Shown: positions 868 through 5,808 of the stretch, one piece after another
Position numbering within the stretch: the first letter of the stretch is position 1
How the letters are laid out: the number at the start of each line of letters is the position of its first letter
From: a bacterium
GTDB taxonomy: Bacteria > Coprothermobacterota > Coprothermobacteria > Coprothermobacterales > JAADFF01
Length of the DNA: 6,401 nucleotides
Reading direction: 5' to 3'
Assembly: GCA_027063755.1 (NCBI GenBank)
Contig: JAMORD010000110.1
Location: forward strand, 1 to 6,401
Program-made: the position numbers and the translations under genes
Notes under the pieces: model-generated
Seen by the model: the letters and a program-made list of their open reading frames with translations, nothing else
Databases searched by the model: none
Told to the model about the DNA's origin: nothing

Positions 868-883
868 TTTTATATGATATACT
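854..883 (+). promoter_or_regulatory. Promoter of the rpsB operon
   Basis: TTGGCA (854-859, 5 of 6) is followed after 18 nt by TATACT (878-883, 5 of 6). TGA at 875-877 directly precedes it and forms an extended -10 element (TGn). The expected transcription start is about 889-891, giving a leader of about 88 nt before the rpsB start codon. The -35 box lies within the last codons of yjbQ. This is the best promoter seen in the window and suits a highly expressed ribosomal-protein operon. Confidence 0.65.
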
Positions 884-898
884 TCATAAGTAAAAACT

Positions 899-971
899 CA
901 CACCCTCTATATGTTGGGTGTCCCCGTTGGGGGTGCACTAAGAGGGTGGAGGAAAAACCCAACAGGAGGTG
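899..971 (+). promoter_or_regulatory. Structured rpsB mRNA leader (candidate S2 autoregulatory pseudoknot)
   Basis: Three perfect or near-perfect pairings can be drawn. The outer stem CACCCTCT (901-908) pairs with AGAGGGTG (941-948), 8 bp. A nested hairpin GTGTCCCC (918-925) pairs with GGGG-bulged T-GCAC (930-938) around a GTTG loop. GTTGGGT (913-919), inside the outer loop, pairs with ACCCAAC (957-963), 7 bp downstream of the outer stem, which makes an H-type pseudoknot (it competes with the nested hairpin only at 918-919). The pseudoknot's 3' strand ends one base before the ribosome binding site. S2 represses its own mRNA through leader structures in proteobacteria; that this leader does so is inference. 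Confidence 0.6.
964..971 (+). promoter_or_regulatory. Ribosome binding site of rpsB
   Basis: AGGAGGTG with 8 nt between GGAGG and ATG 978. Its last bases create an in-frame GTG at 969 that would add three residues (MQN), but that codon is part of the site itself. A second GGAGG at 948-952, next to the leader stem, is too far from the start to serve it and may act as a decoy. Confidence 0.8.
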
Positions 972-2407: not shown

Positions 2408-2412
2408 TAGCC

Positions 2413-3129
2413 ATGGTGGTCCGCTCAGCATATAGTTCTATACTTCTAAAATTGAGCGGTGAAATTCTGGCAGGTGAAAGGGGCTGGGGTTATTCTTCCC
2501 AGTCCCTTTTTTCTATTTTGAATGTCATCGCCGCTTTGTGGAAAGAGGGTATCCGTATCGGTATTGTGGTAGGTGGTGGTAATTTTTGGCGTGGACGTAT
2601 GCATGGAGATATAGGCCTTAGTCGGGTTGTTGCCGATCAAGTTGGTATGCTTGCCACAGTAATGAATGCTTTGGTACTTCAAGATAAACTTCGTCAGCTC
2701 AATGTCAAAACCCGTGTTGTGGGAGCTATGAACTTTGGCAACTTTGCACCCTCTATGTCCCCTGTAGAAGCTGCTAAATTATATCGCGCTGGTGAACTGC
2801 TTATATTTGCTGGAGGTACTTCTAATCCATTCTTTACAACAGATACTGCAGCAGTGCTTCGTGCCGCAGAGGTGGGAGCTGAAGTTGTAATAAAGGGTAC
2901 TAAGGTTGATGGTGTTTATGATAAAGATCCGACAAAGCACCCTGATGCTAAGAGATATTCTTCTATTAGTGTTGAAGAAGTGCTCGAGCGCAGGCTTGAG
3001 GTTATAGACATGACTGCTGCCTCTCTTCTTAGGGATGTGGGACTCAAAATGATAGTATTTAATATAGGCAAGCCTGAAAACCTTGCTAAAATTGTTGCAG
3101 GAGAAGATATCGGAACACTTATATACTAA
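2413..3129 (+). CDS. pyrH: Uridylate kinase (UMP kinase)
   Basis: A 238-residue bacterial-type UMP kinase of the amino-acid kinase fold. It phosphorylates UMP to UDP with ATP and is normally a hexamer regulated by GTP and UTP. Motifs are LLKLSGE (11-17, phosphate-binding Lys13), GIVVGGGNFWRGR (near 50-62), DQVGMLATVMNAL, GGTSNPFFTTDTAAVLRA (UMP-binding region), KGTKVDGVYDKDP (nucleotide-binding lid) and the C-terminal DMTAASLLRD / IVFN. All are intact and length is normal. The start ATG 2413 follows AGGAG (2397-2401) at 11 nt, a slightly long spacing; GTG 2416 is less likely. It begins 5 nt after the tsf TGA stop. An intrinsic-terminator-like hairpin lies within codons 22-34 and another stem lies just before it, which could make downstream transcription depend on pyrH translation. 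Confidence 0.97.
   Translation: MVVRSAYSSILLKLSGEILAGERGWGYSSQSLFSILNVIAALWKEGIRIGIVVGGGNFWRGRMHGDIGLSRVVADQVGMLATVMNALVLQDKLRQLNVKTRVVGAMNFGNFAPSMSPVEAAKLYRAGELLIFAGGTSNPFFTTDTAAVLRAAEVGAEVVIKGTKVDGVYDKDPTKHPDAKRYSSISVEEVLERRLEVIDMTAASLLRDVGLKMIVFNIGKPENLAKIVAGEDIGTLIY
2421..2459 (+). other. Hairpin in the first codons of pyrH
   Basis: CCGCTCA (2421-2427) and TGAGCGG (2453-2459) are perfect 7-bp inverted repeats around a 25-nt loop, which itself can pair TATA (2431-2434) with TATA (2439-2442). The right arm encodes the conserved Leu-Ser-Gly of the kinase; the left arm encodes the variable N-terminus. It lies 17 nt before the terminator-like hairpin and could act as a pausing hairpin. It does not cover the pyrH ribosome binding site. 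Confidence 0.5.
2477..2514 (+). terminator. Intrinsic-terminator-like hairpin inside pyrH
   Basis: GGGGCTGGG (2480-2488) pairs with CCCAGTCCC (2498-2506) in 9 bp with one G-U, around a 9-nt loop (2489-2497). AAA at 2477-2479 can extend the stem into the following T6 run (2507-2512), then CT. This has every part of a Rho-independent terminator (A-tract, GC-rich stem, U-tract) yet lies within codons 22-34 of a fully open pyrH frame. Translating ribosomes would be expected to mask it; when pyrH is poorly translated it could stop transcription of the whole distal operon. Termination activity is inferred from structure only. Confidence 0.6.
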
Positions 3130-3146: not shown

Positions 3147-3704
3147 GTGAAGAATGATCCGCATGTTAAGGAAGCAAGACGGCATATGCAGAAGACCATA
3201 GATGTTTTTAAGGAGGAACTTGGAGGTATTAGGGCAGGTAGAGTTTCTCCTACTCTCATTGAAAAGGTTGAGGTTATGGCTTATGGTCAACCTATGGAGC
3301 TGAGACAGGTGGCCCTTATATCTGTCCAGGGTTCTACAACACTTGTTGTTCAACCATTTGATCAGTCTACTCACGATGCTATTTTTAAGGCACTAGAGAT
3401 GGCTAACCTTGGAGCGATGCCTACTTCTGATGGTAGGATTATTCGCATTAATTTCCCGCCGATGAGTCAGGAACGTCGTGCGGAAATGATAAAAATCGTT
3501 CATAAATTTGCTGAAGAGGCAAAGGTAGCTATTCGTAATATTAGAAGAGAACTCAACAAACAGGTTGATGCTAAGCAGAAAGATGGAGAGTATTCGGAAG
3601 ATCAGGCAAGAAGGGTAAAAGATGAAATTCAGAAGGTAACAGATGAATTTATTTCAAAAATAGACGAGATGGTGAAACACAAAGAGCAGGAGATTATGGA
3701 GTAA
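3147..3704 (+). CDS. frr: Ribosome recycling factor
   Basis: A 185-residue protein from GTG 3147, the usual length for the family. With EF-G it splits the post-termination 70S complex so that the subunits and mRNA can be reused. The long three-helix bundle is seen in the N-terminal helix with ELGGIRAGRVSP (about 24-35) and in the charged C-terminal helices, including IRNIRRELNK with the conserved Arg pair and KDGEYSEDQARR. The middle beta domain reads YGQPMELRQVALISV through MPTSDGRIIRINFPP. No truncation or unusual substitution was seen. It begins 17 nt after the pyrH stop, and its own stop is only 2 nt before the ferredoxin start. Its order after pyrH is the standard bacterial arrangement. 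Confidence 0.97.
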   Translation: MKNDPHVKEARRHMQKTIDVFKEELGGIRAGRVSPTLIEKVEVMAYGQPMELRQVALISVQGSTTLVVQPFDQSTHDAIFKALEMANLGAMPTSDGRIIRINFPPMSQERRAEMIKIVHKFAEEAKVAIRNIRRELNKQVDAKQKDGEYSEDQARRVKDEIQKVTDEFISKIDEMVKHKEQEIME

Positions 3705-3706
3705 AG

Positions 3707-3889
3707 GTGTATTATGAGATAACGACTTCCTGTGTCAATTGTGGAATTTGCGTGGCGGTGTGTCCTGTAAATGCAATAGAGGAAGGGGAACACCGCCCTT
3801 TTATTAATATTAATGCATGTATTTTGTGTGATTTGTGTAGAAAAGAATGCCCTATTTCGGAGGCTATCGTGGTGAAAAATGATGAATAA
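3707..3889 (+). CDS. 2x[4Fe-4S] ferredoxin (clostridial type)
   Basis: A 60-residue protein with two complete CxxCxxCxxxCP motifs: Cys9, 12, 15, 19 followed by Pro20, and Cys38, 41, 44, 48 followed by Pro49. This is the small bacterial ferredoxin that carries low-potential electrons through two [4Fe-4S] clusters in the cytoplasm. The two halves are separated by 18 residues with a GEHRP turn, slightly longer than the most compact clostridial forms. GTG 3707 is the only start before Cys9; GGAG at 3698-3701 serves it at 5 nt. It starts 2 nt after the frr stop and its last codons overlap cdsA, so it is surely part of the operon. It fills the position that uppS holds in many bacteria. The redox partner is not shown by the sequence; the MEP-pathway iron-sulfur enzymes IspG and IspH, which use ferredoxin in many organisms, are a reasonable guess because dxr is nearby. 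Confidence 0.93.
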   Translation: MYYEITTSCVNCGICVAVCPVNAIEEGEHRPFININACILCDLCRKECPISEAIVVKNDE

Positions 3890-4739
3890 AGCGACCTTTA
3901 AAAATTGGCTTGTGTTGATAAAAGAGACGGCCTTTCGTTCCTCTATTGGTATCATCTATGTTGCCATTGTGCTTGGTGCCGTTTTTCTTGGAGGGGAATA
4001 CTTGTATGGTTTGCTATCGTTTATGGCTCTTGTAACTGTTTATGAGATTGTAGATATGGAATTTAAAGGGAAACAGTGGTGGAAAAAAGCTATTTATGGA
4101 GCTATTGGTGTACTCTTGTGGCTTGTATTATATTTCTTCTCACTTAGGGTGTTTCTTGTCTTATTATTTGTTATTTTCTTTTTATGGTTTTTTGTGTATG
4201 CAGTGATTCTAAAAAAGGAGGAAGAGATGTTTTCTTCTTCTTACTATATGTTCTTCTTTCTCATCATGTATGTTCTTGTGGGGTTATATATTGGCATAGA
4301 GCTATATGAGCAAGTGGGAAAAATGTCTTTTACATCTTTACTCGTTATGGTATGGACGTTTGATGTGTTTAGCTATGTAGGTGGTAAAACGATGGGGAAA
4401 ACCAAACTTGTTCCTACTATTAGTCCTGGTAAGACATGGGAAGGATTTATTACCGGTTGGCTGTCGTTGGCAATACTGGAGGTGTTACTTTGGATTTCCA
4501 ATATCTGGAAGGTAGAGCCATATACACTTGGTATTTCTGTTATTCTCCTTGCCCCCGTTCTTCTTACAGGTGACTTGGTAGAATCTGTTGTAAAAAGAAA
4601 GGCTGGAGTGAAGGATTCGGGCTTTATCATTCCTGGTCATGGTGGTATGTGGGATAGAATAGACAGCACCATCGCTGCATTCTATATTATGTGGTTGCTT
4701 GAATACCTGGAGCAGGTGATTGGCAGTGTCAAGATGTAA
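3882..4739 (+). CDS. cdsA: Phosphatidate cytidylyltransferase
   Basis: A 285-residue integral membrane enzyme that makes CDP-diacylglycerol from phosphatidic acid and CTP, the branch point for phospholipid synthesis. Several hydrophobic helices are visible (about 22-57, 71-110, 122-140, 150-168, 190-208, 216-229, 263-275). The family region FDVFSYVGGKTMGKTKL (about 160-176) leads to SPGKTWEGF (181-189), and the signature SVVKRKAGVKDSG ... PGHGGMWDRIDS (about 236-262) holds the conserved Lys/Asp and the final DR-D metal and substrate residues. The start is ambiguous: ATG 3879 and ATG 3882 are adjacent, and GGTGA (3871-3875) fits 3882 better by comparison with dxr. It overlaps the ferredoxin gene by 8 nt, and its last codons overlap dxr by 14 nt. 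A lysine/glutamate-rich cytosolic loop near 111-116 creates an internal ribosome-binding-like sequence, which is probably chance. Confidence 0.96.
   Translation: MNKATFKNWLVLIKETAFRSSIGIIYVAIVLGAVFLGGEYLYGLLSFMALVTVYEIVDMEFKGKQWWKKAIYGAIGVLLWLVLYFFSLRVFLVLLFVIFFLWFFVYAVILKKEEEMFSSSYYMFFFLIMYVLVGLYIGIELYEQVGKMSFTSLLVMVWTFDVFSYVGGKTMGKTKLVPTISPGKTWEGFITGWLSLAILEVLLWISNIWKVEPYTLGISVILLAPVLLTGDLVESVVKRKAGVKDSGFIIPGHGGMWDRIDSTIAAFYIMWLLEYLEQVIGSVKM
4714..4720 (+). promoter_or_regulatory. Ribosome binding site that decides the dxr start
   Basis: AGGTGAT matches the anti-Shine-Dalgarno complement and precedes GTG 4726 by 5 nt. The in-frame TTG at 4720 overlaps this site and would add two residues; it is less likely but could be served by GGAG at 4709-4712. 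Both candidates lie within the end of cdsA. Confidence 0.55.
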
Positions 4740-5808
4740 GCTGGCTATACTTGGCATTACAGGTTCTATCGGTTCTCAAACTGTTCAGGTGGCACAGCAT
4801 CTTGGTTGTGATATTGTAGCTGCATCTGCTGGTAGACGTATAGAAAAGCTTCAAAGTTTAAAAGATGTACTTGGTATTGATGTTATTTATTCACCATATG
4901 GCAATTTTGATAGAAAGGCTTTTGAGGAGGCTGTGTATTCTGCAGATGCCATCATGGTAGCTTTGTCAGATGTTTCCGAAATGCCATTGGTTTTAAAACT
5001 CCTGGAAAGTGGTAAGCGTGTTGCCATTGCCACGAAAGAAATGCTTATTTTGGGGCATGATTTATTTGCACCGTATAGGTGGAAAAACTTGTATCCTGTA
5101 GACTCTGAACATGCAACAGTGTATATACTGATGAGACCGTATGTTCCTTTGGTGAAAGAGATATATCTAACTGCGTCGGGGGGGGCTTTTAGAGATTTAT
5201 CGCTGCAAGAAATAGATAATCTTTCACCAAAGGATGCGTTAAAACATCCTGTGTGGAGTATGGGATACAAGATTACCGTTGATTCTGCGACCTTGGCTAA
5301 TAAGGGTATAGAGCTCTTAGAGGCTAGGGTGCTGTTTGATATTCCGCCTTCTAAATTGAAAGCGGTAATGCATAGAGAGGTTATTGTCCACGCCATGGTT
5401 GTGCTCCACGATAACTTTACACTTATGGGAGCATATAAACCCTCTATGCTTCTTCCAATACAGTTTTCACTGACATATCCCAACCTTAAAGCGTCTTTAC
5501 TGAAATCTGTCAATTGGCATGAGCAGACTCTTCATTTTCAGGATATTCCGATAGATAAGTACGGTATGTATAAGTTGGCCATAGATGTATTGAAGACAGA
5601 CGATAAAAAACTGTATATGCTATATCTCATAGCAGATGATATTGTTGTTGAGAGATATATGAAGGAAGAAATAAAGTTTTCTCAGATGCCTGTACTTGCT
5701 GAGAAGATAATAAATACCCTATCAGATAGTGATATACCTACCTATCCAGAAGATAGGGTGGAGTGGTATAGACAGATGAAAGAGAGAGCGAAGGAGGTAG
5801 CAATATGA
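4726..5808 (+). CDS. dxr: 1-deoxy-D-xylulose 5-phosphate reductoisomerase
   Basis: A 360-residue enzyme (E. coli has 398) that converts DXP to 2-C-methyl-D-erythritol 4-phosphate with NADPH and a divalent metal, the committed step of the MEP isoprenoid pathway. The NADPH loop is LAILGITGSIG (near 6-16). Catalytic positions are kept: Lys104 (ATKE), Asp126-Ser127-Glu128 (VDSEH), Ser151 (TASGGAFRD), His174 and Trp177 (HPVWSMG) and the metal/substrate stretch ITVDSATLANKGIELLEA (about 183-200). The C-terminal part is divergent: HPQSIVHSM, usual in the family, reads HREVIVHAM near 216-224, the GxPDMRxPI loop reads GAYKPSMLLPI near 235-245, and the NAANE-like stretch is replaced near 302-306. It is probably still a reductoisomerase because all catalytic residues I can align remain. 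A run of 8 G bases encodes the Ser-Gly-Gly. The gene overlaps cdsA by 14 nt and rseP by 4 nt (ATGA). Confidence 0.9.
   Translation: MSRCKLAILGITGSIGSQTVQVAQHLGCDIVAASAGRRIEKLQSLKDVLGIDVIYSPYGNFDRKAFEEAVYSADAIMVALSDVSEMPLVLKLLESGKRVAIATKEMLILGHDLFAPYRWKNLYPVDSEHATVYILMRPYVPLVKEIYLTASGGAFRDLSLQEIDNLSPKDALKHPVWSMGYKITVDSATLANKGIELLEARVLFDIPPSKLKAVMHREVIVHAMVVLHDNFTLMGAYKPSMLLPIQFSLTYPNLKASLLKSVNWHEQTLHFQDIPIDKYGMYKLAIDVLKTDDKKLYMLYLIADDIVVERYMKEEIKFSQMPVLAEKIINTLSDSDIPTYPEDRVEWYRQMKERAKEVAI
5178..5185 (+). repeat. Homopolymer run of eight G inside dxr
   Basis: Eight consecutive G span the codons TCG GGG GGG GCT, which encode Ser151-Gly-Gly-Ala of the active site. It is the longest G run in the window and uses GGG codons that its neighbours seldom use. 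Slippage here, by polymerase or in sequencing, would shift the frame and remove the C-terminal 60% of the enzyme. Confidence 0.9.
5792..5798 (+). promoter_or_regulatory. Ribosome binding site of rseP
   Basis: AGGAGGT lies within the last codons of dxr, 6 nt before ATG 5805. The start overlaps the dxr stop as ATGA, an arrangement typical of translational coupling by re-initiation. Confidence 0.8.

Follow-up and report, generated by a model that had tools for sequence, protein, structure and literature searches.

The question raised by this locus is why an intact coding sequence should carry what looks like a transcription stop signal. We analyzed a 6,401-nt stretch of DNA (the window) that contains, all on the forward strand, rpsB (978 to 1808; TIGR01011), tsf (1808 to 2407; TIGR00116), pyrH (2413 to 3129), a block comprising frr, a small ferredoxin-like ORF (fdx), cdsA, and dxr (3147 to 5808), and rseP from about position 5805. 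The tsf stop codon lies 5 nt before the pyrH start. The small ORF in the interval between frr and cdsA (3703 to 3889, forward strand) is cysteine rich and ferredoxin-like, and it is absent from the E. coli operon. The initial annotation had described pyrH as intact and ordinary, and the UMP kinase that it encodes indeed gave a full-length match to TIGR02075 (pyrH_bact) at 1e-78.

Structure of the hairpin inside pyrH

A scan of the sequence identified the hairpin much as first described, with 14 pairs in total (7 of them G-C) and a 7-nt loop, at positions 2476 to 2510 of the forward strand and within pyrH codons 22 to 33. The 5' arm (2476 to 2489) is GAAAGGGGCTGGGG, the loop (2490 to 2496) is TTATTCT, and the 3' arm (2497 to 2510) is TCCCAGTCCCTTTT. 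The 9-bp core pairs 2480-2488 with 2498-2506, including one A-U and one G-U pair, and three A-U and two G-U pairs extend the stem beyond this core. A run of six T's (2507 to 2512) is followed by CTATTTTG; together they form the U-tract TTTTTTCTATTTT (T6CTATTTT; 2507 to 2519, forward strand), of which the first four T's are paired with the foot of the stem. Measured to the first base of the stem, the distance is 63 nt from the A of the pyrH ATG (2413) and 69 nt from the tsf stop codon (2405 to 2407). Because the KLSGE motif is encoded upstream of the hairpin, the true pyrH start cannot be 3' of it.

The predicted fold of 2465-2520 has an energy of −25.4 kcal/mol (z = −4.38), and none of 200 shuffled sequences was equally stable. 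Compared with hairpins located after genes in G001, the sole congener available, the pyrH hairpin has a higher stem score (30.5, versus a median of 27) and a U-tract score above the 75th percentile (5.04, versus 4.22). A stable G-C-rich hairpin with a U-tract directly 3' of the stem is the structure expected of an intrinsic terminator, and by structure the pyrH device is one, with putative terminator activity.

No Rfam family scored above its gathering threshold anywhere in the window, which rules out a known Rfam cis-regulatory RNA; at 2380-2560, there were only subthreshold matches, mostly to microRNA families. Elsewhere in the window, the rpsB leader (879 to 958, forward strand) resembles t44 (RF00127), an RNA that precedes rpsB in E. 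coli, over the full model (30 bits, against a gathering score of 44; E = 6.3e-5). This leader is well conserved in G001, and it may be an autoregulatory leader for S2 in a lineage far from the gammaproteobacteria.

A second hairpin is predicted over the pyrH start codon (2410 to 2471, forward strand, in a fold of 2385-2520). It is conserved in G001, where both arms of its 7-bp core, CCGCTCA/TGAGCGG, are unchanged, and it may possibly couple translation of pyrH to that of tsf.

Conservation of the pyrH hairpin

When the codons of pyrH were shuffled synonymously with the protein kept, 20 of 3000 shuffles (0.7%) yielded an equally good stem in the region. The genus is represented by two genomes, that of the window (G000) and G001, and across 4747 aligned nucleotides these share 85.8% identity; the hairpin and its tail, by comparison, are 100% identical. 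A relative that encodes the same protein but lacks the stem would have counted against the initial annotation; in G001, the stem is retained. All 13 pyrH synonymous sites within the hairpin and tail are unchanged, versus 140 of 206 outside, and 68% of the other conserved pyrH codons are identical. A permutation of the longest identical run within pyrH gave only a marginal result (P = 0.06), and the conservation of pyrH by itself thus provides moderate evidence that the hairpin is maintained.

All five genomes of another family of the order (f2; G002 to G006, loci L112 to L116) have a perfect 13-bp pyrH hairpin at the homologous place, made of unrelated sequence. It takes the form AGCGGAGAAAA-nnn-TTTTCTCCGCT with small variations and directly follows the codons for KLSGELL; its outermost pair is A-U in three genomes and G-C in two. 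Per genome, between 0 and 4 of 3000 synonymous shuffles were as good, and when the same null was applied to 131 pyrH sequences, all seven members of the order ranked first. The pyrH genes of two f3 genomes from the same phylum lack such a hairpin. Outside this group, the unrelated genome G010 (L119) has a 9-bp pyrH hairpin, GGGCGAAA..TTTCGCCC, spanning the codons for KLTGE, matched by 43 of 3000 synonymous shuffles.

The U-tracts in f2 are weaker than those in the genus of the window, and that of G003 is poor, so that the hairpin is shared while the strength of termination may differ. A stem retained beside a weak U-tract is what would be expected if the hairpin shielded processed rpsB-tsf mRNA at its 3' end or blocked nucleases, with no termination involved, and in Clostridium, stem-loops do set operon stoichiometry through RNA stability (PMC8219983). 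Within the genus of the window, however, the U-tract is retained, and the one in pyrH is stronger than those of most terminators located after genes; we therefore regard a role in stability or processing as improbable.

Terminator-like hairpins in other coding sequences

We surveyed 680 kb of G001 (about half of the genome; 656 genes) using a simple coding-score gene caller, which also set the gene starts. Ten terminator-like hairpins with a U-tract were found 60 to 180 nt into coding sequences, versus 0.9 to 1.3 in synonymous shuffles; the same scan found two on the antisense strand and three in the roughly 395 kb of coding sequence more than 300 nt past a gene start. At a stem score of ≥24, there were nine at 60 to 180 nt, versus 0.3 in the shuffles and none either on the antisense strand or beyond 300 nt. 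Control loci from other bacteria contained one such hairpin in about 111 kb of the 60-to-180-nt zone (Fisher P = 0.0002 versus G001).

The host genes in G001 include secA, plsX, rnhB, rlmH, radA, mutS2, comEA, recG, and pyrH, among others, and from reading of the sequence, we take two further hosts to be ruvC and hutH. Besides the pyrH hairpin, which starts within the first 100 nt of its gene, embedded hairpins occur in the first 6 to 230 nt of coding sequences (L124, L126, L130, L131, L136, L137, L138, L227, L241, and L242), mostly at 60 to 175 nt. The set in the genus comprises at least 12 embedded terminators, in pyrH and at least 11 other genes, with termination predicted from their structure.

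Having picked the set in G001, we then compared it to the genome of the window, in which all 12 comparable hairpins still form a terminator-like hairpin. In the 11 gap-free alignments, 4 of 137 pairs are broken, whereas both positions have changed in 3 pairs and a single position in 8; identity across these loci is 92% in the hairpin and tail, versus 81% in the flanks. The twelfth locus is a SAM hydrolase gene whose hairpin coincides with the beginning of the gene as called; there, most of the stem sequence has been replaced, but a stem forms again. In 11 of 11 genes, synonymous sites within the hairpin are better conserved than those elsewhere (Mantel-Haenszel z = 6.4).

These results bear on whether the pyrH hairpin reflects chance or constraint on the protein. 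For pyrH alone, the synonymous null of 0.7% and the marginal longest-run test leave some room for such an origin; however, the set as a whole shows position bias, retention, and synonymous conservation, and the pyrH hairpin recurs in f2. With the synonymous null, these properties rule out chance and coding constraint, which we consider vanishingly improbable as explanations.

In f2, G002 has three hairpins at 60 to 120 nt, versus 0.15 expected, and 200 kb of G003 contains no embedded hairpin by the U-tract criterion. Among the f2 orthologues of host genes that were compared (pyrH, plsX, and recG), only pyrH has a strong hairpin. A strong terminator-like hairpin also lies about 80 nt into a gene at 4435-4465 of G002 locus L189; this gene presumably encodes triosephosphate isomerase.

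Each embedded hairpin follows a co-directional gene, at a distance of ≤26 nt in all but two cases. From reading of the proteins, we take the upstream and host genes to include the pairs rplS/rnhB, hpf/secA, Clp ATPase/radA, yebC-like/ruvC, and leuS/comEA. Using adaptation to ribosomal-protein codon usage as a stand-in for expression, we found a median drop of 27.5 percentiles across the hairpin junctions, versus −1 in a comparison set of 434 other closely spaced pairs (P = 0.0017); tsf and pyrH of G001 are at percentiles 97 and 63, respectively, and no drop is seen at 2 of the 12 junctions scored. By this proxy, the hairpins separate highly expressed from less expressed genes within an operon. 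Genomes of the genus are 95% coding, and 74% of co-directional gaps are ≤30 nt. The stop-to-stem distance, considered as a possible index of runaway transcription, did not differ in a small E. coli sample.

Predicted effect on the rpsB-tsf-pyrH operon

The reading that we consider likely is that the hairpin in the pyrH coding sequence is an intrinsic terminator that acts as a partial stop behind rpsB-tsf and sets stoichiometry within the operon. Some of the polymerases that have transcribed tsf would be released at about 2510-2516, such that rpsB-tsf mRNA would exceed pyrH-frr-fdx-cdsA-dxr-rseP mRNA, and expression of the later genes would be lowered. The terminator would be located in the pyrH coding sequence because the 5-nt gap between tsf and pyrH leaves no intergenic space. 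Since total termination would leave essential genes unexpressed, readthrough must be assumed; we infer its partial extent from the essential downstream genes together with the missing gap. In E. coli, a Rho-independent terminator is located behind rpsB-tsf, with readthrough into pyrH-frr (PMC6131387), and of 93 other bacteria that we compared, 19 have a terminator between tsf and pyrH. In the simplest model, this lineage would retain the tsf-pyrH valve of other bacteria, written into pyrH for want of a gap. That rpsB-tsf is separated from pyrH-frr and the later genes by a genuine-looking terminator under selection, as initially proposed, is supported by the conservation and the synonymous null.

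The earlier proposal that termination is conditional found less support. Its restriction to cases in which ribosomes lag behind is doubtful, as E. coli terminators positioned up to 100 bp into a coding region are efficient despite translation of the ORF (Li et al., PMC4824070). By analogy, partial termination is likely to be the default state here; a site about 65 to 100 nt past the pyrH start would be effective since the first ribosome would still be behind the polymerase. A related possibility is a translation-gated attenuator, in which a prompt ribosome start on pyrH would open the terminator, and downstream expression would follow initiation, coupled to tsf through the start-codon hairpin. 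The pyrH start codon does lie within a predicted hairpin only 5 nt from the tsf stop, and for several embedded hairpins the stem begins more than 100 nt into the gene, a position at which ribosomes would interfere in E. coli (PMC4824070). The pyrH hairpin, in contrast, falls in the first 100 nt, a zone in which ribosomes do not suppress terminators in E. coli (PMC4824070), and we identified no pause site; we consider gating by translation unlikely at this locus.

The initial annotation had also likened the device to the E. coli pyrBI attenuator, with UTP level setting ribosome-polymerase spacing. The two resemble each other in that the terminator lies about 100 nt into a translated frame and upstream of a pyrimidine gene, and pyrH is itself a pyrimidine gene with a start-codon distance similar to that of the pyrBI leader. 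However, there is no leader peptide here, the frame being that of the PyrH enzyme, and the region before the stem (2413 to 2475) lacks a U-rich pause tract, with 32% U and a longest run of 2. Moreover, the device recurs in many genes that have no connection with pyrimidines, with at least 11 other hosts and no pyrimidine gene among those identified. UTP sensing is accordingly not supported as the basis of the device, and we judge it very unlikely. A polarity device of a lineage without Rho was also rejected, as Rho is present in seven of nine genomes of the phylum, including both members of the genus.

Extending the preferred reading, a partial stop within pyrH, to the whole set, we lean toward the view that intrinsic terminators within protein-coding sequence form a class spread across the genome and would act as dosage valves, 60 to 180 nt inside the gene that follows a highly expressed one. 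An RNA signal would then have shaped synonymous codon choice, and perhaps the amino acid sequence, in pyrH and other essential genes, and translation of the host gene may tune how much readthrough occurs.

Relation to known systems and implications

A terminator at the tsf-pyrH junction is already known. The E. coli element (PMC6131387) occupies the same junction and likely has the same effect, with rpsB-tsf exceeding pyrH-frr through readthrough; it is, however, intergenic, whereas the one described here lies within the pyrH coding sequence. The early-ORF terminators of Li et al. (PMC4824070) share its position relative to the start codon and terminate efficiently in E. coli, but those were engineered, and the ones here are natural, conserved, and present in many genes. 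Mapping of 3' ends in E. coli (PMC7815308) and Borrelia (PMC10319736) identified RNA ends within coding sequences, some with features of intrinsic terminators like those predicted here from sequence, although intrinsic ones are a minority there.

In the open-licence literature, we found no description of a conserved, position-biased set of coding-sequence terminators that follow highly expressed genes. Terminator surveys have often set aside intragenic matches: the forerunner of TransTermHP took intragenic structures as background, and a Mycoplasma survey skipped predictions in coding regions (PMC1852404, PMC4411717).

If the hairpins terminate transcription, they would constitute a natural, conserved set for testing ribosome-polymerase spacing in early coding sequence, and the coding sequences of essential genes would be subject to a constraint at the RNA level. 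In a genome without room between genes, the embedded stop probably lowers the output of the later genes; a compact genome would thereby stay nearly gap-free and step expression down via a stop signal placed in the next protein.
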